NCBI GenBank assembly: GCA_030526155.1
Contig: JAUNDI010000024.1
Location: 1 to 34,965, forward strand
Direction: 5' to 3'
DNA length: 34,965 nucleotides
Source of the DNA: Bacteroidia bacterium
Lineage (GTDB): Bacteria > Bacteroidota > Bacteroidia > Bacteroidales > Marinilabiliaceae
The translations under genes and the position numbers were made by a program. Below the pieces are notes generated by a model. It worked only from the letters and a program-made list of their open reading frames with translations. It searched no databases and was not told the DNA's origin. Shown piece after piece: positions 2,584 to 30,624 of the stretch; within the stretch, counting starts at the first letter, position 1, and every line of letters starts with the position of its first letter.

Positions 2584-3675
2584 ATGAGCAAGAAAACGAC
2601 AATCGGACTATTTCTCGCTGCTCTTACAGCGACAGCATGTCAAAAGGAGGCAAACCATTACGATGCCACATCAGAGTACTTTACCTATATGGGACGTACG
2701 ATAACAGTAACCGATTTAACAGAAGGTCCTGAGGTTAGATTCAACTATCCAGGTTCATCTATATACACCCAATTTACAGGCAATAAGATAGAGATACAGA
2801 TGCGCCCAGGCTCAGGGTCATTTATGGTTACTATTGACGACAATACGCCAAAGCGCATAGAGTTTGATGAGAATACAAGTAGCATTACGATAGACTCCAT
2901 CGTTGGTGAAGAGCCACATAAGCTATCCATAATGTTGGCAACTGAAGGATACGAGCACAATCCTACATTTTACGGTTTGAATGTCGATGGTGAACTATCT
3001 ACATATACCCTTCCAGAGACAAAGCTTCTCTTTATAGGCAACTCCATAACTTGTGGATATGGCGTAGAGGACTCTATCCCTAGTAATCCTTTTAACTACC
3101 TAACAGAGAACCACTACCATAGCTACGCAGCCATTACAGCACGTACTATTGGTGCTCAGTGGCACTCAATATCACGTTCAGGCATCGGTATTTATAGAAA
3201 CTATGGCGACGTACGTGAAGGCAGTCAGATATGCATGCGTCAGCAGTTCCACCGAACACTCTTTGACAACGAGAGCTTCAAGTGGGACCACTCGACATAT
3301 CAACCAGACGTCATTATGCTCAACCTAGGCACAAACGACACTAGTCTTGACAATTACGACAAAGAGTTACTACAGAGCGGATATGACGAATTTGTTGATA
3401 CATTACGTCAGCTCTTCCCTACTAGTAAGATAGTACTACTCACAGGCTCGATGCTTAATGGCCAAGCCCTGGTAGACGTCAAAGATTGCCTTGACAATAC
3501 CTGCAAGAGATGTAACGATAACGGCGACAACGACGTATACCGCTTTGATATGACACCTCAGAATGGCAACTTAGGCTTTGGTGCGGATTACCATCCAAGT
3601 ATGAAGCAACAGCAAAAGATGGCCGATGAGCTTATATCATTCTTAAATAACAATATATTAACTTCAAAAAATTAG
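2584..3675 (+). CDS. SGNH-hydrolase lipoprotein, carbohydrate esterase family 2-like
   Basis: 363 residues from the ATG at 2584, chosen because the longer frame would begin inside the gyrB terminator and because MSKKTTIGLFLAALTATAC reads as a lipoprotein signal with the lipid Cys at residue 19. An N-terminal beta-rich domain (about 30-140) is followed by an SGNH hydrolase domain. Block I is GNSITCGYG with catalytic Ser154, block III is GTND at 249-252, and block V is D335-Y-H337-PS. This order (jelly roll then SGNH) is that of CE2 acetyl esterases, which remove acetyl groups from polysaccharides, so envelope-anchored deacetylation of glycans is the likely role. The substrate is not visible. 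It starts a co-directional run with the PspC and methyltransferase genes. Confidence 0.8.
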   Translation: MSKKTTIGLFLAALTATACQKEANHYDATSEYFTYMGRTITVTDLTEGPEVRFNYPGSSIYTQFTGNKIEIQMRPGSGSFMVTIDDNTPKRIEFDENTSSITIDSIVGEEPHKLSIMLATEGYEHNPTFYGLNVDGELSTYTLPETKLLFIGNSITCGYGVEDSIPSNPFNYLTENHYHSYAAITARTIGAQWHSISRSGIGIYRNYGDVREGSQICMRQQFHRTLFDNESFKWDHSTYQPDVIMLNLGTNDTSLDNYDKELLQSGYDEFVDTLRQLFPTSKIVLLTGSMLNGQALVDVKDCLDNTCKRCNDNGDNDVYRFDMTPQNGNLGFGADYHPSMKQQQKMADELISFLNNNILTSKN

Positions 3676-7153: not shown

Positions 7154-7181
7154 AAAAGTTCAAAAAAGTGTTACGAAAGAT

Positions 7182-7212
7182 TTTGCAATACAACTAAAAT
7201 ACCTTAATTTTG
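7182..7212 (+). promoter_or_regulatory. Promoter of the TPR gene at 7251
   Basis: TTTG at 7182-7185, 19-bp spacer, TAATTTTG at 7205-7212. This matches the Bacteroidota consensus in both boxes and in spacing. The start codon is 38 nt further on. Confidence 0.75.
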
Positions 7213-7250
7213 CGCGTCAAAAGAATATTAAATAGATAATTGTTAAAGCA

Positions 7251-7928
7251 ATGTCAAATAATAAATCACAAAATCAGGCAGAGAATAGCCTTCAAGAAGT
7301 AGAAGTTGCTGTATCACGTTTGGAGCAACGTATCGAGCAAAACCAGAATACTATACTAACAGTAGCAGCTATTATCCTCGTGGTAATCGCAGGTGTATGG
7401 GCTTATATCTCTCTTTACCAAGAGCCACTTAAGAAAGAGGCTCAGGCATCTATCTTCAATGCTCAGTACTATTTTGAGGTTGATAGCTTCCAGCTAGCAC
7501 TCAATGGCGATGGCATCAATGATGGTTTCCTCCAAGTAATCGACAACTACGGCTCAACACCAGCTGGTGAGCTCGCAAAATACTATGCAGGTATATGCTA
7601 CCTCAACCTCGGTCAGTTCGCTGAGGCAAAGGATATGTTCAAGTCATTCTCTTCTGACGATGAGACTCTCAACACAATGGCTTTAGGTCTTGTTGGTGAC
7701 GCAGAGTCAGAGCTTGGCAACGCTGAGGCAGCTATCTCAGCATATAAGAAGGCTGCTAACAATGGTAACGAGATTGCATCTCCTCTCTTCCTCAAGAAGC
7801 TCGGCGACGCTTATCGTGCGGCAGGCAACAAGGCTGAGGCTAAGGCTGCTTACCAGACTATCAAGGACAACTACTCTCGTAGCAACGTAGCTCGTGAGGT
7901 AGAGAAGTACCTTGCAACAGTTGAATAA
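7251..7928 (+). CDS. Membrane-anchored tetratricopeptide repeat protein
   Basis: 225 residues. A short cytoplasmic N-terminus with a coiled-coil-like segment (VSRLEQRIEQNQN) precedes one transmembrane helix at about 37-57. The rest (about 65-225) is helical and contains TPR-like units, for example AKYYAGICYLNLGQFAEAKD and GDAYRAAGNKAEAKAAYQ. The layout resembles YfgM-type proteins (one TM helix plus periplasmic TPRs), which in enterobacteria assist envelope proteins at the Sec translocon; that role is only an analogy here. It has its own promoter and a terminator downstream. Codon use is rich in CTC and GCT, like the strongly expressed genes in this window. Confidence 0.8.
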   Translation: MSNNKSQNQAENSLQEVEVAVSRLEQRIEQNQNTILTVAAIILVVIAGVWAYISLYQEPLKKEAQASIFNAQYYFEVDSFQLALNGDGINDGFLQVIDNYGSTPAGELAKYYAGICYLNLGQFAEAKDMFKSFSSDDETLNTMALGLVGDAESELGNAEAAISAYKKAANNGNEIASPLFLKKLGDAYRAAGNKAEAKAAYQTIKDNYSRSNVAREVEKYLATVE

Positions 7929-12808: not shown

Positions 12809-13098
12809 AGCTCACATTGTGCCAAATATCTGCATACACCCCCATTATTTATCAACAATCTTTCCACAATGCCCTAACACTTACTCTTCTATATATTTTC
12901 ATCCGTATTGTTTATATCCACCTTCTCCAACTTCTCTATAACCTCGCTCTATGCAGGCTCTAACCAGGCTCTACCCTTCCTATACCCTCAAAATCATAAC
13001 AAACCATTAGACTTCTCTCGTGCATATATCTACCATAAATTTAACCTCTCAATTGTTCTATAAATTACGATTTCTCAACACCATTTAATATCCCTACA

Positions 13099-15538: not shown

Positions 15539-16537
15539 ATGTCTCTATCTCGCGTCATATCTTGCGTCGTTGCGATTATATCTATAGTCGCTCCTCTTGC
15601 TATGGCGCAATCTGATGAGACTATATACGATTTTCTCCGACTACCCTATAGCACCCGTGCTATAGGTCTCGGAGGTAAGCATATCACACTCTCTAATGAC
15701 GAGCCGGGGTTGTGGACTCACAATCCCGCTCTCTTGAGAGATACCCTACACGCTTTCGCTTCGTTCGATGCAGCTCCTCTTACTGATGGTATATGGACTG
15801 CTCAGGCTTCGTACTCACGTAAGATTAGCAATATTGGTACTCTCGGTATCGCTATCCAGCATATTGGGTATGGTAATATTGATGCTACCGACCAATGGGG
15901 CGAATCTCTAGGTAATATGTCGGCTAACGAGAATGCTCTTATATTGGCGTATAATAAACAAATTGCCCCATATCTCTACTTAGGTGCTAGCATAAAGCCC
16001 GTATGGAGCCACCTGACCGGCTACAATAGTTTTGGTCTTTGCATGGATTTCGGTCTGCTTTTCCGCTCACGTAACAATAATATATCTGCCGCATTGGCTA
16101 TCTCAAATATTGGTGGTCAAATTACCTCTTACGACGCCGATGGCTCTACCAACCACCAAACAATGCGACCTCAAGTGGCTATTACTTGCGCACTGACTCC
16201 CCAACATGCCCCAATACATCTAATCCTTACCGTTAAGGATCTACATAAGTGGGACCTTACTCCCGAATACCAAAAGAAGATAGAATTCGCAGATTGCCTA
16301 CTACGTCATTGTATCATTGGCGTCGAATTCCAACCTGCCAAATCTTTCTATATAACTGCAGGGTACGACCAGCGCAAACGCCGCGAATTACGCCTTAGCT
16401 CTGTCGGAGGTACTGCCGGACTCTCATGGGGCCTAGGGATCAAAATAGCTAAGCGTTTCGACCTCAAATACGCCATGTCCCGCTATCACCTAGCCGGAAC
16501 CACTAATAGCATAGGTATATCAACAAAGCTTTTCTGA
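15539..16537 (+). CDS. porQ: Type IX secretion system protein PorQ-like
   Basis: 332 residues with a signal peptide (about 1-23, ending AMAQ). The mature start YDFLRLPYSTRAIGLGGKHI, then PGLWTHNPALL, and the many amphipathic beta strands with a C-terminal strand ending in Phe match PorQ, an outer-membrane beta-barrel protein of the PorV/FadL-like group needed for T9SS cargo handling with PorU/PorZ. It is co-transcribed with the acyl-CoA ligase. No terminator hairpin was seen after it. The accessory island begins beyond this gene. No other T9SS gene is in the window. Confidence 0.85.
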   Translation: MSLSRVISCVVAIISIVAPLAMAQSDETIYDFLRLPYSTRAIGLGGKHITLSNDEPGLWTHNPALLRDTLHAFASFDAAPLTDGIWTAQASYSRKISNIGTLGIAIQHIGYGNIDATDQWGESLGNMSANENALILAYNKQIAPYLYLGASIKPVWSHLTGYNSFGLCMDFGLLFRSRNNNISAALAISNIGGQITSYDADGSTNHQTMRPQVAITCALTPQHAPIHLILTVKDLHKWDLTPEYQKKIEFADCLLRHCIIGVEFQPAKSFYITAGYDQRKRRELRLSSVGGTAGLSWGLGIKIAKRFDLKYAMSRYHLAGTTNSIGISTKLF

Positions 16538-16953
16538 TAATCTCACCTTACTCCACTCTCACCCCCTCCAATATCCACCGCCACAACCAAATTAATATCA
16601 TTACTTATTATTCCCTCCCTTATACAATCCTTATACCTCGCTCTAACCTCGCTCTATACAGCCGCTACAAAACCAATAATACACATTGTTTAAATAATCT
16701 ACAATATCCATATAAACCGACATTTTCCCTCCCCATCTCAAATTCACCTCTCAAAATCCTCAACCATACTTCCACTCACAATTTATTCAAACATTCATTC
16801 ATTCACCGGGATATATTCCTCACACAAGCGCGCGTATTATACACAAAAAATCTACAACATGTATCTCCTTTCGCGATTTTTTTCAATATAGAGTTCATTT
16901 TATATCAGCTACTCCCATTATTTCCCTATTTGACATAAATCCAATACCCATTC
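16538..16953. other. Intergenic region at the left edge of the accessory island, 416 bp
   Basis: No ORF or RNA gene seen. It contains a tandem 11-bp repeat ACCTCGCTCTA (16635-16645 and 16646-16656), the same unit found at 12941, and the inverted copy R1 of the island repeat (16782-16834). The remainder is AT-rich pyrimidine-biased sequence. Confidence 0.6.
16782..16834 (-). repeat. Island repeat, copy R1 (inverted, partial)
   Basis: Read on the minus strand, this copy contains GTGTGAG, then GAATATATCCCGGTGAATG, then AATGAATG and TTTGAATAAA, matching copies R3 and R4 almost base for base over about 50 bp. Similarity fades beyond 16834, though a weak trace continues to about 16850. It lies downstream of the HXXEE gene in that gene's direction. 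Confidence 0.85.
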
Positions 16954-17469
16954 TCAAGAAACAACACGCCTCCCAAGCCAATGCGCAAAGCGTAAATTAA
17001 CAACCATCACAACTACGCCTATAACTCCCCACATCAACATCTCCCATCCGCTCATCACAAGCCAAATACTATGGTCTCCATACCCTCCAAATGGCAACAT
17101 AAGTATCGAGGTGATCACCCCTGGCACATATCCACTCACCAAAAGACCCTGCCCCAAATGTACAAGCAAGTGAACCGAAAAGGCTATAAATAAGGCCGAC
17201 CATATCTCCACAGCATACCTACCACCAACTAAAACATATGCCGTAGCCAAAAGTAATACTACGAGCTCCTCCAATACAGCAACAGCAAAAGCCTTAGTAC
17301 TTAATCCCGACAAATGCTCAATAACAAACCGCATCCGAGGAAATCTCCTACTCAAACTCTCCCTATGCGCTACCAACCATCTATGCTGAAAAAGCATCTC
17401 CTCCAAATCATGTATAATAAACGCCAAAGGAAAAGGCAAAACCAAATATAAAACAGATAAAGCACTCAT
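16954..17469 (-). CDS. HXXEE domain integral membrane protein
   Basis: 171 residues with about five hydrophobic segments and short connecting loops. The N-terminal motif H20-D-L-E23-E24 (IIHDLEEM) defines HXXEE proteins, and further conserved His and Glu residues lie in a later helix (SVHLLVHLGQ) and in AVLEELVVLLL. The family is uncharacterised; the conserved His and Glu in membrane helices suggest a metal-dependent membrane enzyme, which is inference. It is the only gene of the first island module, flanked by repeat R1 at its 3' side and R2 at its 5' side. Confidence 0.78.
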   Translation of the reverse strand: MSALSVLYLVLPFPLAFIIHDLEEMLFQHRWLVAHRESLSRRFPRMRFVIEHLSGLSTKAFAVAVLEELVVLLLATAYVLVGGRYAVEIWSALFIAFSVHLLVHLGQGLLVSGYVPGVITSILMLPFGGYGDHSIWLVMSGWEMLMWGVIGVVVMVVNLRFAHWLGRRVVS

Positions 17470-17552
17470 ATCTTAACTCACTACCTTTCATAAAAATCAA
17501 CCGCAATATACAAAATACCCCCAAACTCATAACATTTCGCACAAAAAATACG

Positions 17553-17642
17553 CCTAAAATTTGGCAACCCCACAAATAAAATCATATCTCGCGCCCGTGT
17601 GTGTGAAATATGTCCCGATAAATGAATGAATGTTTGAATAAA
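17553..17642 (+). repeat. Island repeat, copy R2
   Basis: Shares AATTTGGCAACCCCACAAA, ATCATATCTCGCGC, then GTGTG, ATCCCG-like and AATGAATGAATGTTTGAATA with R3/R4, but with more substitutions (for example TGTCCCGATAAATG). Its hairpin is CGCGC-CCGT-GTGTG, with the arms conserved and the loop changed. Confidence 0.88.
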
Positions 17643-17683
17643 GAGAACAATTTAATTGTTAAAACCAACAAATTATTTGGAAG

Positions 17684-17702
17684 TATATATATATATATAT
17701 AT
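17684..17702. repeat. (TA)n dinucleotide tract
   Basis: An uninterrupted TA alternation of 19 nt, 30 nt upstream of the 46-codon ORF. It could be a slippage-prone promoter spacer or simply AT-rich DNA. Confidence 0.8.
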
Positions 17703-17732
17703 TAGCGGCGTCTAACATAAAAGCAAAAAATT

Positions 17733-17873
17733 ATGGCTAATAAAAACAATTCAAATGGGAATAATAATGATAATGTATCCCAAATTTTAGATGTTATTAA
17801 AACAACAGCAGATGCCGGAAAGAAGATATTGGATTTATGGACAAAACATAAGAAAAACAAAAAATCAAGGTAA
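17733..17873 (+). CDS. Hypothetical small protein, 46 residues
   Basis: ATG at 17733, TAA at 17871-17873. The product is Asn/Lys-rich: an N-terminal polar stretch (MANKNNSNGNNNDN), one amphipathic helix (VSQILDVIKTTADAGKKILD) and a basic tail (KHKKNKKSR). There is no TM helix. I do not recognise a family. It sits between repeat R2 and the structured RNA before the AbiF-like gene. It might be a small component of that system, or a chance ORF in AT-rich DNA. An A-rich stretch just upstream (AAGCAAAAAA) could serve as a Bacteroidota-type initiation region. Confidence 0.45.
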   Translation: MANKNNSNGNNNDNVSQILDVIKTTADAGKKILDLWTKHKKNKKSR

Positions 17874-17956
17874 TAAGAATATCTACAGACAACCAGCTTT
17901 GCATAGACAAATAACTGAAAACTCTATTAAATAAACATTATATTCAAAGATAATTT

Positions 17957-18040
17957 GCACATTTGCTAAACTATACCTAATTTAGCAACGCGAGAACCCG
18001 CCAAGCCTCTCAACGATGCTCAAATGTGCGGGTCTATTTT
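17957..18040 (+). ncRNA. Candidate structured RNA upstream of the AbiF-like gene
   Basis: Several long-range pairings are visible. GCACATTTG (17957-17965) pairs perfectly with CAAATGTGC (18021-18029). GCTAAA (17965-17970) pairs with TTTAGC (17981-17986). GAGA (17992-17995) pairs with TCTC (18008-18011), and its loop contains ACCCGC (17996-18001), which pairs with GCGGGT (18028-18033), an H-type pseudoknot or an alternative to the first helix. A T-rich stretch (TCTATTTTATTT) follows, and the AbiF-like ATG is at 18053. From memory, AbiF genes are often preceded by a conserved 'AbiF RNA motif' proposed to act as an RNA antitoxin. I cannot confirm that this is a member of that family. Confidence 0.5.
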
Positions 18041-18052
18041 ATTTATTCCATC

Positions 18053-18469
18053 ATGGCAACGGTTGTACCATTCAATAAACCATACAGAACTCCATATGAG
18101 CTTATTCTGATTCTTAAATCTAGAGGCTTAAGCATCGTGGACGAGGGAAAAGCTGAAAGATTTGAATCTTGGCTTACAATTATTATAGGACAAAGAAATG
18201 CTTGTTGCCACCATTCGCGTGTATGGAATAAAAAGTATTCAATCCGTCCAACTATGCCAGCTAAAACAACTTACCAATGGATAACATTGCCAACAGATAC
18301 ACAACGAATATATTTCACCTTGTGCATCATCAAGTATTTCTTAAATATCATATCACCTAATAATGACATAATAAATAAAATAAAGAGTCTATTTCAAGAA
18401 TTCAATGAAATTGATATCAGCGCTATGGGTTTCCCAACAGATTGGGAAACCGAACCTATTTGGCAATAA
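18053..18469 (+). pseudogene. AbiF/Abi_2-family HEPN protein, internally shortened
   Basis: 138 residues from the ATG at 18053, versus about 300 for the family. Residues 1-36 match the Abi_2 N-terminus (FNKPYRTPYELILILKSRGL, then DEGKAERF). From residue 39 it jumps to the family's C-terminal part: SWL, then HEPN ribonuclease motif R48-NACC-H53 (RNACCHHSRVWNK), then IIKYFLNIISPNNDI and the terminal MGFPTDWETEPIWQ. About 160 residues in between are missing, yet the frame is kept and there is no stop. Family members cleave RNA and act in abortive infection or toxin-antitoxin pairs. This version is probably a deletion remnant; a functional mini-toxin cannot be excluded. Repeat R3 begins 16 nt after the stop. 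Confidence 0.75.
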
Positions 18470-18484
18470 CCACACAACCTTATT

Positions 18485-18571
18485 TTTTCCTCCCCAAAAA
18501 TTTGGCAACCCCACAAAAATATCATATCTCGCGCACCTGTGTGAGAAATATATCCCGGTGAATGAATGAAT
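18485..18571 (+). repeat. Island repeat, copy R3
   Basis: Nearly identical to R4 from TTTTCCTCC through AATTTGGCAACCCC, ATATCATATCTCGCGC, the CGCGC-ACCT-GTGTG hairpin and AATATATCCCGGTGAATG; similarity ends inside AATGAATGAAT, so the TTTGAATAAA end is missing. It starts 16 nt after the AbiF-like stop. An upstream in-frame ATG for the AAA gene (18562) lies inside this repeat and is not the real start. Confidence 0.92.
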
Positions 18572-18666
18572 TTTACCACATACCCAATAAACTCCATCCG
18601 TCAGCCTATAGTCCGTACAAAGAGAAACTTTCATCATATCACAACTCATTTTTCTCAACAAATAAC

Positions 18667-18674
18667 TATCTTTG
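18667..18674 (+). promoter_or_regulatory. -7 box for the AAA-ATPase/nuclease gene
   Basis: TATCTTTG at 18667-18674 is a perfect -7 box only 7 nt before the chosen ATG at 18682, so transcription would begin almost at the start codon (leaderless or nearly so). A -33 box is not evident. Confidence 0.5.
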
Positions 18675-18681
18675 TCACACT

Positions 18682-20241
18682 ATGGATGCGCGCGACCTCA
18701 AACAATTGCCTATTGGCATACAGACTTTCGAGAAAATTATCAACGAAGGCATGCTCTACGTTGATAAAACCGAACAGATGTATCAACTTACAAAGACAAG
18801 CCAATATGTCTTTCTGAGCCGTCCACGTCGATTCGGAAAGTCACTCCTCGTCTCTACACTCCAAGCCTACTTCGAAGGTAAGAAACATCTCTTCAAAGAC
18901 CTTTGGATCGATAGCATCGAAAAGGAGTGGATTGAGTATCCCGTGCTTCGTTTCGATATGAGCCTTGGCAAGCACCAAGACGCAGAAGGTCTAAACTATT
19001 ATCTCAGCAACAGTCTCAAAATTGAGGAGGACAAGTGGGGCGTTACATACATTGCTGAATCTATCAATGCTCGCCTCGCCAATCTCATACAATTCGCCTA
19101 CGAAAAGACTGGCAAGCAGGTAGTCGTCCTCATCGACGAATACGACGCTCCTCTGCTCGACATAGTACACGAAGAGGAGATGCTGCCAAAACTTCGCAAC
19201 ATAATGCGCAACTTCTATTCGCCACTCAAAGGTTGCGACCCATACATTAAGTTTGCATTCATCACTGGCATCACCAAGTTCTCGCAACTCAGCATCTTCT
19301 CCGAGCTCAACAACATAAAGAATATCTCGATGCTTCCACAGTTTTCAACTATATGCGGTCTGACAGAGACCGAGATGAAAACTCAACTGGGTGACTATGT
19401 TGATTATTTTGCAGAACAAACCAATAGAACAAGAGAAGAAGTTTTTGAGAAGTTAAAATACAAATACGATGGCTATCATTTCACATGGCCATCAGAGGAT
19501 ATCTACAATCCATTCAGCCTTCTGAATTCTTTGCAAGATCTTCAGTTCAAGAGCTATTGGTTCGGCAGTGGCACTCCTACCTACCTAATCGAGATGCTCC
19601 GCAAGTTCGATGTCGTACCGTCCAATATTGGCAGGTGCAAAGTCTTCGACTCCGACTTCGACGCACCTACCGAAAGAATTAAAAGCATCATACCCATTCT
19701 CTATCAGTCTGGCTATATTACCATTAAGGATTATAATAGCGAGACTGAGAGATACTTCCTCGACATCCCTAATGCCGAAATCAGAGTCGGACTGATGGAG
19801 TCTCTTCTGGAAAACTACCTCGACCGACAAACACTCGATGGCAAAGCCCTCATTGTCGACATCTACGAGGCCGTTCGCGACAACGATCTCAATCTGTTGT
19901 TCAGCTCCCTTCAGAAATTCCTCCGTTCTCTCCCATACTGCGAAAATACCCACTACGAAGGACACTACCAGCAGTTGCTATACGTCATCTTCACACTCCT
20001 TGGTCGCTATGTCGATGTCGAAGTGCGTGCCGGTAATGGCCGTGTCGATATAGCCATGAACGTCCGAGGTCGCTTCTACCTCTTCGAACTTAAGATGAAC
20101 CAGTCTGCAGAAGTTGCCATGTCACAAATCAACATCAAACAATACCAGGAGAAATTCGAACTCACTGGCGCAACTGTAACCAAAGTAGCCGTCAACTTCA
20201 GTCTCGACCAGCATACCATTACCGACTGGGTCATTCAATAA
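18682..20241 (+). CDS. AAA-ATPase with C-terminal PD-(D/E)XK nuclease domain (AAA-ATPase-like/DUF1703)
   Basis: 519 residues from the ATG at 18682; the frame is open upstream but that part overlaps repeat R3 and lacks family similarity. The family's usual start, LPIGIQTFEKIINEGMLYVDKT, is at residues 9-30. P-loop RPRRFGKS is at 47-54, Walker B VVVLIDEYD ends at 155, and FAFITGITKFS carries the sensor region. The C-terminus holds Asp456 in NGRVDIAM and E469-L-K471 (FELK), the PD-(D/E)XK nuclease residues. These ATPase-nucleases are abundant in gut and oral Bacteroidota and often multi-copy. Their role is unproven; mobile-element or defence functions have been suggested. GC content and codon use look richer than in the flanking island genes. 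Confidence 0.88.
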   Translation: MDARDLKQLPIGIQTFEKIINEGMLYVDKTEQMYQLTKTSQYVFLSRPRRFGKSLLVSTLQAYFEGKKHLFKDLWIDSIEKEWIEYPVLRFDMSLGKHQDAEGLNYYLSNSLKIEEDKWGVTYIAESINARLANLIQFAYEKTGKQVVVLIDEYDAPLLDIVHEEEMLPKLRNIMRNFYSPLKGCDPYIKFAFITGITKFSQLSIFSELNNIKNISMLPQFSTICGLTETEMKTQLGDYVDYFAEQTNRTREEVFEKLKYKYDGYHFTWPSEDIYNPFSLLNSLQDLQFKSYWFGSGTPTYLIEMLRKFDVVPSNIGRCKVFDSDFDAPTERIKSIIPILYQSGYITIKDYNSETERYFLDIPNAEIRVGLMESLLENYLDRQTLDGKALIVDIYEAVRDNDLNLLFSSLQKFLRSLPYCENTHYEGHYQQLLYVIFTLLGRYVDVEVRAGNGRVDIAMNVRGRFYLFELKMNQSAEVAMSQINIKQYQEKFELTGATVTKVAVNFSLDQHTITDWVIQ

Positions 20242-20355
20242 CCACCCCCATCTATCAACACATGATAGTATTGACGTGACATTTGCTATATTTTACACGT
20301 TAGGACATGAAGGGCACGAATGGCATTAAGAAAAATGGTCCACTACTCAATATTC

Positions 20356-20367
20356 GACCTATAGGTC
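20356..20367. promoter_or_regulatory. Perfect 12-bp palindrome upstream of the EVE-like gene
   Basis: GACCTATAGGTC, 21 bp upstream of the -33 box of the following promoter. The position and perfect dyad symmetry would suit a regulator-binding site; no regulator gene is adjacent. Confidence 0.35.
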
Positions 20368-20388
20368 AATAAATCGTATATTGCGCCA

Positions 20389-20417
20389 TTGTTTGGCACA
20401 TTGTTTATTTACATTTG
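20389..20417 (+). promoter_or_regulatory. Promoter of the EVE-like gene
   Basis: TTG at 20389-20391, 18-bp spacer, TACATTTG at 20410-20417, which agrees with the Bacteroidota consensus. The ATG is at 20487, leaving a leader of about 60 nt. Confidence 0.65.
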
Positions 20418-20486
20418 CGGCAAATACAAATAGATAAATTCTATTGTTTTGCCAAAAATAGGAATACTAACTAAATACAAATAGCT

Positions 20487-21875
20487 ATGAGTGTTTGCGT
20501 AATGATTAGAACGACTAAAGTTATTGTACCTAATGACTTTCTTCATGCCCTCGCAAATAAGGGCGAACAAATTGTTGCAACTAGCCTTGAGTTCCCTTCA
20601 GTTAAATATGGTACTCACGACAAGGCTATTCGTGGCATAGAAGTAAACCAAGAAGAAAACGGATATGAAGTACGTGTCTGTTCATATGCTTCGGTGGAGG
20701 ATTATATATTATTTGCTAAAACCATAGATGTACTTATTGGATTAACAAGAGGGAAAGCATACTACGAAGACTGTGACGATGATCCAATTGAAAATCCTAT
20801 AGAGAGATTCAATACAGATTGGATTGAAGAGCAGAGAATGTCTAGTTTCATGGCGACAAGAGCATTAACCAAACATATCGGTAGCCCAGCCGTTCTTTGG
20901 GGAATGTTTTGTCATATGTGTATTGGTGCAAAAGTGTATAATGATTTTGACATACCATTGAGAAGCGAATACAAAAAAGAGTACATGGACACGCTTCAAG
21001 AATATCTCTTGTCAATACAATGGCATTTTGCCAATTTAAAAGATACAAGTACTGATTTAGTAATACAATCTGAAAATGGTAATAATCTAACAATTTCAAT
21101 GATTTGTATTAAGGATGGTAAGGTAAATAATTTTGACTATATCTCAGTAGCTAGCCTCCTATGTTTAATGGATATGGATAATAAAGATGACGAACCCGTA
21201 TTAATCGAATTTGAAAATTTATGGAAAATACTTCCCGAAGGCGTTTTCCGTGTGATTGACGAATGGCAGTACAAGCGCATTGAAGAAGTCACCCCTGATA
21301 TGGTTCGTCAAATGATAAAGAAAGCAAAACGTTTCCAAATAGACGATTTTCATCATGATCCAATAGAACCTGGTAATGGGTTCGACGATAAACAAAATAC
21401 GTTTATCCTAATGTGGAATCCAGCAATATCAAGTGTAGACCTTGATGAACACAATTATGGTATAGAAAACATGCTTACCGAAATATTCAATTGGAGTGTT
21501 TGGGAACACGAAAAAGCAAAAATAGGAGATAGGTTTTTCTTAGTAAGAGTTGGTGAAGGAAATACAGGCATAGTGATGAGTGGCGTTTTTAGCTCAAACC
21601 CATATGAAGATAGCGATTGGAGCGGTAAGGGTAGACAAACGTATTATATGGATATGAACCCAAATGTTATTCTTAACCCTGAGAAAGTTCCCATGATTAC
21701 TACAGAACAACTTATGACTGCTATCCCAACATTCGACTGGACTGGGGGGCACTCTGGTAGAATACTAGAGAAAGAGGATGCAAAGAAACTAGAAAAACTA
21801 TGGCACGATTATATTGAAGCTAACACAAAATACATAGATGGCGTCAATATGAATGCAGTTAATATTAATTATTAG
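20487..21875 (+). CDS. Two-domain protein with EVE/PUA-like C-terminal domain
   Basis: 462 residues, cytoplasmic. The C-terminal part (about 305-450) starts FILMWNPAISS and continues through FNWSVWEHEKAKIGDRFFLVR, GNTGIVMSGVF, a DWSGKGRQTYYMD stretch, VILNPEKVPMITTEQL and FDWTGGHSG, ending in a LEKLWHDYIE helix. This order (WNP, GDRFFLVR, GIV.SG, YxD, WTxxxSG) is that of the EVE/SRA-like PUA domains that often accompany HNH nucleases and read modified bases. The N-terminal ~300 residues (start MSVCVMIRTTK) resemble a Bacteroidota DUF family I think is DUF4299, at low certainty. No nuclease motif is visible. It is AT-rich compared with the preceding gene. Repeat R4 starts 26 nt after the stop. 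Confidence 0.6.
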   Translation: MSVCVMIRTTKVIVPNDFLHALANKGEQIVATSLEFPSVKYGTHDKAIRGIEVNQEENGYEVRVCSYASVEDYILFAKTIDVLIGLTRGKAYYEDCDDDPIENPIERFNTDWIEEQRMSSFMATRALTKHIGSPAVLWGMFCHMCIGAKVYNDFDIPLRSEYKKEYMDTLQEYLLSIQWHFANLKDTSTDLVIQSENGNNLTISMICIKDGKVNNFDYISVASLLCLMDMDNKDDEPVLIEFENLWKILPEGVFRVIDEWQYKRIEEVTPDMVRQMIKKAKRFQIDDFHHDPIEPGNGFDDKQNTFILMWNPAISSVDLDEHNYGIENMLTEIFNWSVWEHEKAKIGDRFFLVRVGEGNTGIVMSGVFSSNPYEDSDWSGKGRQTYYMDMNPNVILNPEKVPMITTEQLMTAIPTFDWTGGHSGRILEKEDAKKLEKLWHDYIEANTKYIDGVNMNAVNINY

Positions 21876-21901
21876 TTTCTAGTTTGTAGATTTTTGGTAA
21901 G

Positions 21902-21998
21902 TTTTCCTCCAAAAAATTTGGCAACCCCACAAAAATATCATATCTCGCGCACCTGTGTGAGAAATATATCCCGCTGAATGAATGAATGTTTGAATAAA
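21902..21998 (+). repeat. Island repeat, copy R4 (longest copy)
   Basis: Runs from TTTTCCTCC through AATTTGGCAACCCC, ATATCATATCTCGCGC, the hairpin CTCGCGC-ACCT-GTGTGAG, AATATATCCCGCTGAATG and AATGAATGTTTGAATAAA. It is almost identical to R3 apart from a one-base indel and a G/C change, and has the distal TTTGAATAAA end also seen in R1 and R2. It abuts the T-run of the TonB receptor terminator and marks the right edge of the island. Confidence 0.92.
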
Positions 21999-22025
21999 AA
22001 AAGAGCGCACCCAAAAGGTGCGCTC
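21995..22025 (-). terminator. Rho-independent terminator of the TonB receptor gene
   Basis: On the minus strand, GAGCGCACC and GGTGCGCTC (22025-22017 and 22011-22003) form a 9-bp perfect stem with a 5-nt loop, followed by TTTTTTT (22002-21996). The T-run touches the end of repeat R4. Confidence 0.92.
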
Positions 22026-22055
22026 ATATTATATTCAAAGTATATCAGCTGCTTA

Positions 22056-24839
22056 TTATAGCGAGAAGTTTACACCAAATGAGTAAATTCCACCAATAAC
22101 ATCCGCGTTAGCCAACTCTCTCTTCTTATTGTTCAAGAGGTTATGACCATTGAAGAATACCTCACAACCATCAACTGGTGTATAACCAACCTTGAGGTTC
22201 ATTGTGACACGTGAGCCCATCTCTACTGCCTTGTTGATAGCATCAGTTGTCAACTCTCGCTTGCCAATAATATTTGCAAATGCCGAGATATTCAACTTGT
22301 TCATTGGCTTGTACATAAGACCAATCATACCATAAATGCTTGGTGTATCCTTATGCTTATGACCATCCTCCAACTCGTAAGGAGCAACCTCAGTAGAACC
22401 AAAGTAGTACGAATTACTATTTCGGTCAAGGTAAATATTATAGTTCAAACCATAATACAATGAACGAGCAGGATACATCTTACCATTTGGAGCCATCCAC
22501 TCTTGACCTGTATTGACAGCATTCATAAACTCTGTATTAGCCATCAACTCTGTTACCATCTCAGGTGTATAAAGATCTACTGGAGAATAAGATGTAGCTT
22601 GCTTAACAAATGTCTCTACATCTCCACTCATACTCATGCGTGTAGCAAGATCCATGAACAACTGTGCAGCCTTGCCTTGCATAACGCTATTAATATCATT
22701 CAAATCCTTACCGAGGAACTTCTCCTTAGCATCGTTCAACTGCATAGCGATACCAGCCGACTGATGGTACTCGTAGTAATCATTGATTACTGTCTTCTGA
22801 ACGTTCAAGTTCAACTTAGCAATCAACTTTGATGAGATAATATAATCCATATTGAGCGAAAGACCACCCTGATGTACCTTGTATGGAACATTCTTATATT
22901 GGATAGTTGCCTTTGTACCCAACATTGTTCCTACTTGTCGAAACAATTTTTGGAATAGAGATGGATCATTTGGGTCTGCAGTAGCCATTGTACCAATAAG
23001 TTTGCTTAGGTCACTAGCACCCAATGTCAACATCGCCTTCTTTGCCTGCAACGCACCATAGTCTGTAGAGTAGCTATAGTAAACCTCAGCATCTAACAAG
23101 ATATTCGATGTTGGTCTCCAACGATAACCAAGCTCAACAGCATCAGAGTACTGAATCTTAGCATCCTCATTACCTACAAACTCCAAATAGTTTGGTGCCA
23201 AGAGGTTTGTTCGCTTCCAGTTGTACTTACTCTTACCGTTCATCATAACGGCACTTCTCATAGCTCTACCATATGATATACGGATGAAGTTTCTCTGGTT
23301 AATCTCCTTAGAGATAGCCAACTGCCATGAGTTATTCCACTTATCAGGCAACTCTGTCTTGTCCGAACGGAAAGCTGCAATATAACGCCACTTATTATCT
23401 GTCTTATAGTCAAAGCGCAATGCTACACCAAGGTCAGAGTTAGAAGCGTCATTGTTAAAGTAACCAGACAACTCTCTCTCCTCACCATTCTCATACTTGA
23501 ATATCTTATGTGGAGCATCCTCTGCATAATGGTGGAAGTATGAAACCTCAGGACGAATTGTCATGTTCTCTACTGGCTTAATATCATATGATGCACTAGC
23601 CGACCAAACAACTGGGTATATCTTCATACCTGGTGTACCTACTGAGTAGGTACCAGAGAACTTATTGAAGCTAGCATTCAAGGACAAACCATAGATTGAT
23701 GAGTTCAAATTAGCATAACCGCCCTTGAACAAACGCTGGTTGAATGAGAAGTAATCACTCAAATAACCTGTACTTGCAATATGCGATGAGTTATAACCAC
23801 CTGTAAGGTCAAATCTCACATTCTCATTTGGTACGTATGTTACATAACCATTGAAGCCCATTGTCTTACGAGCAAGACGCGAATTCTTGAACATCCCATC
23901 AATAGGTGTCTCAGGCTCCAAAATAGAGTACAACTTACCATCAGTATAAGCTTGCTTAATGTTATTAGCAATCTCCTCCTTAGAATACCATCCACCAAGT
24001 GAAGGATTCTTAGTTGTGCTAATACCATTAGCATCAACGTATACAAGACCGTCGTATGGGTTAATCCACAACTTATCTGTATCACGCTGTCTATTCTGCA
24101 AGTTTGCTGTTACACCAAGTGCAAATCTCTCTGTAGGTGCAATTCGGAATGCAACATCACCTACAGTAGTGTTCTGATTACCTATCTGCAATGAGCCAGA
24201 TACATGTGCCGACTGCTGCGAAGGCTTCTCTGTGATAATATTGATAACACCTTGTACAGCATTAGGACCGTAAAGAGCCGAAGAAGCACCACGAACTACC
24301 TCTATACGCTCCACATCCTCTATACCAATTGGTAGGTTATCAAGCGAAATAGCACCACAAAAATAATCCTGACAAATTCTACCATCAATCATCAAAAGTA
24401 TGTTAGATGTCTCGGTATACAACATCAAGTTGTTGTTTGGAATATTATTAAGGCCTCGAATGATAATTTGATAGATACCATTCGACTTCTCAATAACAAT
24501 AACTCCAGGAATTAGTCTGAATGCCTCCTCAATCGTAGAAACACCATACGAACGCATCTCCGCCTTCGTAATTACCGATGACGAAAGTGGACTCTCAAAT
24601 GCTGTCTCCTCTGATTTCGATGCTGATGATACATTCTTGTTCATGATCATTGCAAAGAGCTCATCTACACTAGAGAGTCCCAGTTTCTCAACTGCTTCCA
24701 TCAACTCCTCTAGAGGCAAATCAGATAGCTCCTCCATACTCATGGACAGAATCTGTTCCTTAGTTAAAGTGTTGTTCTGGGCGTCTGCCATCATTCCGAC
24801 AAAGGCAAACATAAACAACAGAAGTAATAATTGTTTCAT
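22056..24839 (-). CDS. TonB-dependent outer-membrane receptor
   Basis: 927 residues. Signal peptide about 1-20 (ending ADA-QNN). A ~50-residue acidic helical stretch (residues 23-72, with MSMEELSDLPLEELMEAVEK) precedes the plug. The plug domain carries SSVITKAEMRSYGVSTIEEA, the IIRGLNN motif, MIDGR and IEVVRGASSALYGPNAVQGV, all standard. The remainder is a 22-strand-type barrel ending in Phe-Ser-Leu (FGVNFSL). There is no carboxypeptidase-like N-terminal domain and no SusD partner, so this is not a Sus-type polysaccharide receptor; a siderophore, haem, cobalamin or similar ligand is more likely. It is monocistronic, with its own terminator. A pairing with the BtuFCD-type importer at 4588-7153 is possible but unsupported by position. 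Confidence 0.93.
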   Translation of the reverse strand: MKQLLLLLFMFAFVGMMADAQNNTLTKEQILSMSMEELSDLPLEELMEAVEKLGLSSVDELFAMIMNKNVSSASKSEETAFESPLSSSVITKAEMRSYGVSTIEEAFRLIPGVIVIEKSNGIYQIIIRGLNNIPNNNLMLYTETSNILLMIDGRICQDYFCGAISLDNLPIGIEDVERIEVVRGASSALYGPNAVQGVINIITEKPSQQSAHVSGSLQIGNQNTTVGDVAFRIAPTERFALGVTANLQNRQRDTDKLWINPYDGLVYVDANGISTTKNPSLGGWYSKEEIANNIKQAYTDGKLYSILEPETPIDGMFKNSRLARKTMGFNGYVTYVPNENVRFDLTGGYNSSHIASTGYLSDYFSFNQRLFKGGYANLNSSIYGLSLNASFNKFSGTYSVGTPGMKIYPVVWSASASYDIKPVENMTIRPEVSYFHHYAEDAPHKIFKYENGEERELSGYFNNDASNSDLGVALRFDYKTDNKWRYIAAFRSDKTELPDKWNNSWQLAISKEINQRNFIRISYGRAMRSAVMMNGKSKYNWKRTNLLAPNYLEFVGNEDAKIQYSDAVELGYRWRPTSNILLDAEVYYSYSTDYGALQAKKAMLTLGASDLSKLIGTMATADPNDPSLFQKLFRQVGTMLGTKATIQYKNVPYKVHQGGLSLNMDYIISSKLIAKLNLNVQKTVINDYYEYHQSAGIAMQLNDAKEKFLGKDLNDINSVMQGKAAQLFMDLATRMSMSGDVETFVKQATSYSPVDLYTPEMVTELMANTEFMNAVNTGQEWMAPNGKMYPARSLYYGLNYNIYLDRNSNSYYFGSTEVAPYELEDGHKHKDTPSIYGMIGLMYKPMNKLNISAFANIIGKRELTTDAINKAVEMGSRVTMNLKVGYTPVDGCEVFFNGHNLLNNKKRELANADVIGGIYSFGVNFSL

Positions 24840-29661: not shown

Positions 29662-29670
29662 AATATCATT

Positions 29671-30624
29671 CTATAACGCACTAATCTCCTCTTCCGACAA
29701 CCCTGTAGCCAAAACAATTTGAGATATAGACATATTGAGCCCCTTAAGATTTTTAGCAATTTGTATCTGCTTAAGTCTTTCTCCTTCAGCTCTACCTTCT
29801 GCTTTACCCTCTTCTCTACCTTTGGCTACACCCCGTTGCATTCCAATTTCAATACCCTCGGTCATTCCCTCAGCACGTCCTTCAGCACGTCCCTCCTCGC
29901 GTTCATAACGCATGACGCACCTAGCCGTACGCACAGTATCAATATTCACATGATATTTTGAGATCTCCTCAGCTGTCATATTGGCAAGTTCAGCTATGCT
30001 ACCTATTTTGTTGAATATAGGTTGCTCATTCTGGAAGGGTAAATTTGTTGTCATGGTCTCCATATTAGCTAAATTATAAAACCAATAGTCTAATTTTTCT
30101 TTAGGGTACTCTAGGGGCTTGCCCTTAAAGTCGGCTAACTCGAATGTAAAGGCCTTCAGTTTCGTGGAAAATACCTCGCCTGTCTCTACCACTTGAAGCT
30201 GGATAGTACGCCTAGCTCGCTGTTGTAATCCGTTCATACGGAAATTTAAAAAGAATATTCCGTAAACGGGACAAAGTTCGTAATTCCAATCATGGTCACC
30301 TTTACGTTCTTGCGTAGAGAATGATCTTGAGAGATAGAATACGATACGGTCGTTAAAATTTGACTGATACCTATTCTGCATCTCCACGATAAACTCTGCA
30401 CCATCGGCAGTGCGACATCTGAGGTCGTATATTACGCCACGCATCTCAAATGATTCTGCCACTATATCTTTATCCAAAAACTCTATATCCTCAATCGGCG
30501 ATTCCGGGTTTAGTAAATCGGTCAAGAAGGCAATCATTATATCCTTCTCACCAAAGATCTTCTTAAAGCCAAAATCCGTCATTGGATTTATATAGCGCTG
30601 ACTGGTTGTGTTTCTCATATACAT
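29671..30624 (-). CDS. Rpn-family recombination-promoting nuclease / PD-(D/E)XK 'transposase' family
   Basis: 317 residues. An ATG two codons in (30618) is equally possible, because MRNTTSQRYINPMTDFGFKK is the conserved start. The N-terminal region has INPMTDFGFKKIFG and FLTDLLN, and the nuclease core GVIYDLRCRTADGAEFIVEMQ with Asp67 and Glu81-x-Gln83 in the D…ExQ arrangement of this family. The C-terminal region (about 240-285) is a Glu/Gly/Arg repeat helix (GRAEGRAEGMTEGIEIG), then a GLSEEEISAL tail. E. coli Rpn proteins are DNA endonucleases that promote RecA-independent recombination. No terminal inverted repeats were seen. The 3' third is about 90% identical to nt 1-311, in inverted orientation. 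Confidence 0.9.
   Translation of the reverse strand: MYMRNTTSQRYINPMTDFGFKKIFGEKDIMIAFLTDLLNPESPIEDIEFLDKDIVAESFEMRGVIYDLRCRTADGAEFIVEMQNRYQSNFNDRIVFYLSRSFSTQERKGDHDWNYELCPVYGIFFLNFRMNGLQQRARRTIQLQVVETGEVFSTKLKAFTFELADFKGKPLEYPKEKLDYWFYNLANMETMTTNLPFQNEQPIFNKIGSIAELANMTAEEISKYHVNIDTVRTARCVMRYEREEGRAEGRAEGMTEGIEIGMQRGVAKGREEGKAEGRAEGERLKQIQIAKNLKGLNMSISQIVLATGLSEEEISAL

Follow-up and report, generated by a model that had tools for sequence, protein, structure and literature searches.

A repeat within an insertion of accessory genes

The stretch of DNA analysed here, referred to as the window, comprises 34,965 nucleotides of contig JAUNDI010000024.1 from the Marinilabiliaceae assembly GCA_030526155.1 (the host). 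Located between the genes for PorQ and a TonB-dependent receptor is an island of accessory genes, grouped as modules A, B and C, and within it lie four copies (R1 to R4) of one short sequence (Table 1). The repeat unit is 53-97 bp long, and its copies lie between 16782 and 21998, all in intergenic DNA; R1 is inverted, whereas R2, R3 and R4, of 87-97 bp each, are direct. A first-pass annotation of the sequence had placed four copies within 5.2 kb, and BLAST and self-BLAST recovered all of them in those places. Pairwise identity between copies was 87-96% (96% over 90 bp for R3/R4, 92% for R1/R4), with self-BLAST E values of 6e-29 for R3/R4, 8e-24 for R2/R4, 1e-19 for R2/R3, 4e-13 for R1/R4, 2e-10 for R1/R2 and 2e-9 for R1/R3. 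The chance that four copies placed at random in 2.6 Mb would all fall within 5.2 kb is about 3e-8. These results confirmed a true repeat that is private to the host among the genomes searched and is clustered at or near the joints between accessory genes.

The copies have a common, sharp right end. In R1, R2 and R4 the resemblance extends to one shared last base (...GTTTGAATAAA; ...GAATGTTTGAATAAA), and the sequences diverge immediately beyond it. At the left end, TTTTCCTCC is common to R3 and R4 and absent from R2 and R1. It had been proposed that copies tend to lie 3' of genes. This was found for R3 and R4 and for R1, which lies 119 nt past the HXXEE gene, and did not apply to R2.

Table 1 Positions of the repeat copies, island genes and flanking features in the window
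Feature	Position	Strand	Remarks
PorQ gene of the type IX secretion system (T9SS), left flank	15539..16537	+	family match
R1	16782..16834	-	inverted copy; only the right 53 bp (core CGCGC...TGTGTG to TTTGAATAAA), without the left half
Module A: HXXEE gene (PF13787), 171 amino acids (aa)	16954..17469	-	Pfam
R2	17553/17556..17642	+	91% identity to R4; precedes module B; on the 3' side of no gene
Module B: 46-aa open reading frame	17733..17873	+	no NCBIfam or PHROGs match
Module B: abiF RNA (RF03085)	17997..18033	+	58.5 bits over the full length of the model
Module B: shortened AbiF/AbiD-like gene, 138 aa	18053..18469	+	family match
R3	18485..18574	+	begins 15 nt past the stop of the abiF-like gene; stops ~11 nt short of the right end of the other copies
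Module C: AAA-ATPase-like/PDDEXK_9 gene (PF09820, PF08011), 519 aa	18682..20241	+	Pfam
Module C: gene for a 462-aa protein	20487..21875	+	without family match; last third has homologues in relatives
R4	21902..21998	+	begins 26 nt past the stop of the 462-aa gene; 62-nt exact stretch in common with R3
Terminator-like hairpin of the TonB gene	22003..22025	-	its T-tail extends into the right-hand end of R4
TonB-dependent receptor gene, right flank	22056..24839	-	family match

Comparison with the closest relative

To place the island, the flanking genes, which as a pair point to Bacteroidota, were compared with those of related genomes. The closest relative by both flanking genes was the same-genus genome G067, with 79% protein identity for PorQ and 81% for the TonB-dependent receptor. 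The two genes are also neighbours in G067, and the similarity, at 74-77% DNA identity, stops at window position 16538 and resumes at 22055. The interval in G067 holds one different gene, of 220 aa, and no repeat. Because the same flanks enclose another gene and no repeat in this relative, the copies sit in an insertion at a variable spot. The 220-aa protein appears SGNH-hydrolase-like, as judged from reading its sequence without a family search. No relic of its gene was detected in the island by tblastn; the matches in the window, at 3139-3636 (E 5e-5) and at two weaker places, were all outside it. In two further genomes, G066 and G065, the genes best matching PorQ and TonB were not neighbours.

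Search for further copies

The host assembly (2.6 Mb in 85 contigs) is 91% complete, and further copies may be missing from it. BLAST found no fifth copy there. The best other match of a covariance model, among the best 150 of 704 host candidates, was window 7177-7252 (22 bits, E 4.6), which looks by eye like an AT-rich, promoter-like stretch; at this depth of scoring weak copies could be missed. The observation that no copy lies elsewhere in the window was upheld by both methods and extended to the rest of the assembly. Copies scattered over the genome, which the first-pass annotation had named as the outcome that would refute its interpretation, were looked for in the assembly and not found, and a genome-wide repeat was rejected within the assembly by BLAST and covariance model.

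The search was extended to a family set of 71 genomes (the host, 14 of the same genus and 56 others), with one genome per species. The repeat was not found in the 70 other genomes by BLAST or by the covariance model, which was applied to 61 candidates in each, so that weak copies could be missed; the host alone matched. GTDB genome contigs and IMG/VR were scanned with exact patterns, which are blind to diverged copies, and gave no match to the patterns of the left half and core. One IMG/VR match to the right-end pattern had nothing in common with the repeat beyond that simple end sequence and was set aside. BLAST of R4 against plasmids gave no match. At the level of the order, 10 of 393 genomes, including the host, had matches to R4 at E<=0.01. 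Two candidates per genome were scored in this search, which is why it returned two of the four host copies. The nine other genomes held ten matches of 19-34 nt, two of them in G331; the context of one match per genome was without further resemblance, and these matches were dropped as chance. With no copy found in the sampled genomes, the repeat either originated at this locus or derives from a source that the sample does not include. Among the papers listed in literature searches on integrons, dif modules, miniature inverted-repeat transposable elements (MITEs) and repetitive extragenic palindromic (REP) sequences, minimal mobile elements and defence islands, no title or abstract opening described it.

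Genes of the island

The first-pass annotation had described modules delimited by the repeat. Copies do lie at or near the module joints, whereas the label "EVE-like" given to the 462-aa protein was not confirmed by any tool, this protein having no Pfam, PADLOC, NCBIfam or PHROGs match. The island genes differ in composition: the G+C fraction at third codon positions (GC3) was 0.42 for the HXXEE gene, 0.30 for abiF, 0.56 for the AAA/PDDEXK gene and 0.31 for the 462-aa gene, and 0.35-0.51 for the 22 other listed genes of the window.

Compared with a 338-aa Abi protein of Bacteroides fragilis and a 299-aa Phocaeicola homologue, the short AbiF of module B keeps about the first 34 and the last ~100 residues, and ~160 residues of the middle are missing in frame. 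It contains an RNxxxH motif, which we take to be that of HEPN proteins. The abiF RNA accompanies both relatives, and at the Phocaeicola plasmid locus (L081) abiF RNA motifs flank the gene on both sides (857-893 and 1884-1943). In C. difficile an RNA of the abiF type is reported to neutralise the AbiF toxin (PMC12373285). The 138-aa protein beside a full-length abiF RNA may be either a relic or a minimal AbiF. Upstream of module B, a (TA)9 run at 17684-17701 lies in the spacer between TTTG (17676) and TATATTAG (17698); if this is a promoter, as it reads by eye, the run could tune it by repeat number.

The short AbiF protein had tblastn matches in 199 plasmid and 4 phage records, and three of these places were retrieved. 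At the nucleotide level, the island matched plasmids (2 records) and phages (4 records) by BLAST, at 66-73% identity and nowhere but inside the AAA/PDDEXK gene. Exact peptide patterns of the AAA, AbiF and 462-aa proteins revealed no relatives in IMG/VR. Among the 70 other family genomes, homologues of HXXEE were present in five and those of the 462-aa protein, by its last third, in six; in the same genus both sit on contigs other than that of the PorQ gene. In the same-genus genomes G058, G059, G060 and G067, what matches this last third of the 462-aa protein is an open frame of 173-183 aa; the matching frames of G057 and G046 are longer. Because of these matches to short frames, the N-terminal 300 aa may represent a fusion.

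Ten stretches around such homologues, two of which overlap, were examined by self-BLAST with a low-complexity filter; they covered all five other HXXEE places and five of the six other places of the 462-aa protein. Tandem or paralogous repeats were seen in L068, L071, L072, L074 and L075. The pairs examined closely, in L068, L070 and L074, were all two-copy and of 34-98 nt: one pair each in L070 and L068 was promoter-like by eye, the L074 pair was of low complexity, and two L070 pairs (35 and 42 nt) were recognised as no known kind. Two-copy, intergenic-looking repeats of 34-42 nt, unrelated to that of the window, surround the same-genus HXXEE gene in L070 (3700-3741 and 9628-9669; G057:C52).

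Fold of the repeat

A hairpin common to all copies had also been proposed. The arms, CGCGC and GTGTG, and the changing 4-nt centre (ACCT in R3 and R4, CCGT in R2, GCTT in R1) are present as letters; a structure was not supported by energy or covariation. Single-strand DNA folds of the copies were inside the range of shuffled sequences (z -1.15 to 0.51), and among the seven pairs of the hairpin five were invariant and none had changed on both sides. No Rfam family reached its gathering score at any copy, weak matches overlapping R4 being far below theirs. A structured RNA was rejected for want of covariation and of an Rfam family at gathering score.

Comparison with known systems

The arrangement was compared with systems in which accessory genes are associated with short repeats. 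Arrays of integron cassettes, and clusters of attC sites lacking an integron integrase (CALIN), resemble it in that a repeat follows soon after stop codons (R3, R4), three copies are direct, accessory genes lie between them and the sequence is private to one host, as are the Vibrio cholerae repeats (VCRs). They differ in that one copy here is inverted, and in the core sites and folds of the copies. attC sites have the core consensus RYYYAAC/GTTRRRY, and no such pair 35-140 nt apart was found on either strand of the four copies with ~60-95 nt of flank. Bottom-strand folds, made for R4 and R2 only, were within shuffles (z -0.88 and -0.25). An attC site was rejected by the core-site scan and these two folds. 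One report mentions one species of Bacteroidetes with a complete integron (PMC9024848).

The dif/pdif modules recombined by Xer share with the island the accessory genes between sites, and the repeat has conserved arms around a changing centre. pdif sites are ~28 bp long, occur in both orientations and have an 11-6-11 structure with arms like those of the host dif. The repeat unit here is 53-97 bp, and the 11-6-11 dyad in its core pairs at 7 of 11 positions in R1 and 8 of 11 in R2-R4, which is within chance. A search with the dif consensus, allowing up to 3 mismatches, did not locate a dif site in the host. With the dyad within chance and no host dif for comparison, the evidence did not support a dif module. 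In Acinetobacter, accessory genes bounded by such recombination sites form linear multi-module arrays (PMC12907356).

Minimal mobile elements of Neisseria are like the island in that different genes can occupy the interval between one pair of core genes and short repeats (Correia, dRS3) lie nearby. Those repeats are numerous genome-wide, whereas the four copies here are all in one insertion. MITEs, REP sequences with their associated tyrosine transposases (RAYTs) and palindrome-associated transposable elements (PATEs) are likewise short, non-coding and intergenic, with short arms. The repeat differs from them in lacking inverted ends by eye, excess target duplication, a Y1 transposase match and dispersal: all four copies are within 5.2 kb, and none was found elsewhere in the 91% complete assembly. 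No match to PF01797 (Y1_Tnp) was obtained in the assembly at E<=0.001, and 5 of 14 control genomes were positive.

Interpretation of the repeat

We tentatively favour the reading, at a probability of roughly 0.35, that the repeat is an attachment-site-like border sequence and that its copies are scars of module additions at a single site. The modules (HXXEE; abiF RNA with the short AbiF; AAA/PDDEXK with the 462-aa protein) would have been added successively at the variable spot between PorQ and TonB, each addition leaving or bringing one copy of the ~95-bp sequence at the joint. Modules B and C are each enclosed by a direct pair of copies, R2/R3 and R3/R4 respectively. Recombination within such a pair would remove the module between its copies and leave a single copy behind; it could be site-specific, through an enzyme supplied in trans, or depend on RecA and the 62 nt that R3 and R4 share exactly. 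Recombination between R1 and R2 would invert module A. The copies are found only in this insertion, three of the four have the sharp right end, R4 ends 57 bp inside the right edge of the insertion, and the module genes differ in GC3, all of which supports this reading. The core and right half alone, as in R1, would be expected of a site joined to a different partner on its left. That the repeat serves as a recombination substrate, as first suggested, is plausible; we infer its participation in the insertions and the existence of a responsible enzyme. Five matches at the level of the Phage_integrase family are present in the genome, none on the contig of the window, and these proteins could be candidates for an enzyme acting in trans.

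Several observations weigh against attachment-site-like borders. R1 is inverted, and 244 bp of the insertion separate its outer end from the left edge; R2 is not on the 3' side of a gene, and R3 departs ~11 nt before the common right end. The GC3 of the HXXEE gene falls in the host range and does not stand out. In module C the GC3 values of the two genes are far apart although the genes have no repeat between them. The dyad in the core is at chance level, 169 of 400 random 120-bp segments having one of at least 8 pairs. No recombinase was detected among the island genes scanned, no strain pair with gain or loss of a module was found in a search with one genome per species, and no repeat like this one occurred in the ten stretches around HXXEE and 462-aa homologues of relatives.

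Borders made by successive additions have to be weighed against a single event, in which all 5.2 kb arrived together from a donor outside the sample in which this sequence is a common intergenic repeat, the copies being passengers that never acted as joints here. VCR, RUP and BOX are common intergenic repeats of this kind in their hosts. The intergenic position of all copies, three of them on the 3' side of a gene, is consistent with such an import, as is the lack of any copy in the 70 family genomes and in the exact-pattern scans of GTDB contigs and IMG/VR. Differences in GC3 between modules are less expected from one donor, however, and exact patterns pointed to no donor in the GTDB collection; we consider this explanation doubtful, though the strongest of the alternatives. 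A small non-autonomous mobile element (MITE- or PATE-like), copied locally into intergenic gaps, would account for full copies of 87-97 bp in both orientations between genes, with a sharp common right end in three of four. The longest flanking matches were, however, 4 nt for R1, 4 for R2 and 5 for R3, with none of at least 4 for R4. This is no target duplication beyond chance, given that 524 of 1000 random placements reached at least 4 and 192 at least 5. A terminal inverted repeat was not seen by eye, and the assembly held neither a Y1_Tnp match nor scattered copies. With R1 and R3 also incomplete, such an element is unlikely.

Slightly less likely again is a shared control element (a leader, 3' untranslated region or protein-binding site) kept for joint regulation of the accessory genes. 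The letters of the core are conserved while the flanks are unrelated, and the left half reads by eye like a promoter of Bacteroidota, with TTTG ~20 nt before TATCTCGC; the best match outside the island is also a promoter-like site, directly before the gene at 7251. Placement relative to genes is nevertheless inconsistent, R1 and R4 having no downstream gene in their own orientation, and neither the hairpin nor an Rfam family at gathering score supported this role. The boldest version of attachment-site-like borders would be an integron-like capture system of Bacteroidota, unrelated to attC and dif, with its own species-private site of ~95 bp around a CGCGC-N4-GTGTG core, into which a recombinase encoded elsewhere in the genome inserts defence-type modules, or excises or inverts them; we regard this as a long shot.

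How small defence-type genes enter and leave a chromosome when no mobile element is visible has yet to be settled. The copies define exact products by which recombination at this locus could be recognised, namely two excision junctions (R2xR3 and R3xR4) and one inversion (R1xR2), all of predictable size.

Other features of the window

A second small repeat, of 11-nt units with CCTCGCTCTA, occurs in two intergenic spots, at 12930-12973 and 16624-16667; its 10-mer had three exact matches against 0.08 expected. At the start of the window, positions 1-374 are an inverted partial copy (77-93% identity to 29665-30094) of a PDDEXK_2 transposase-like region at 29671-30624, some 30 kb away.

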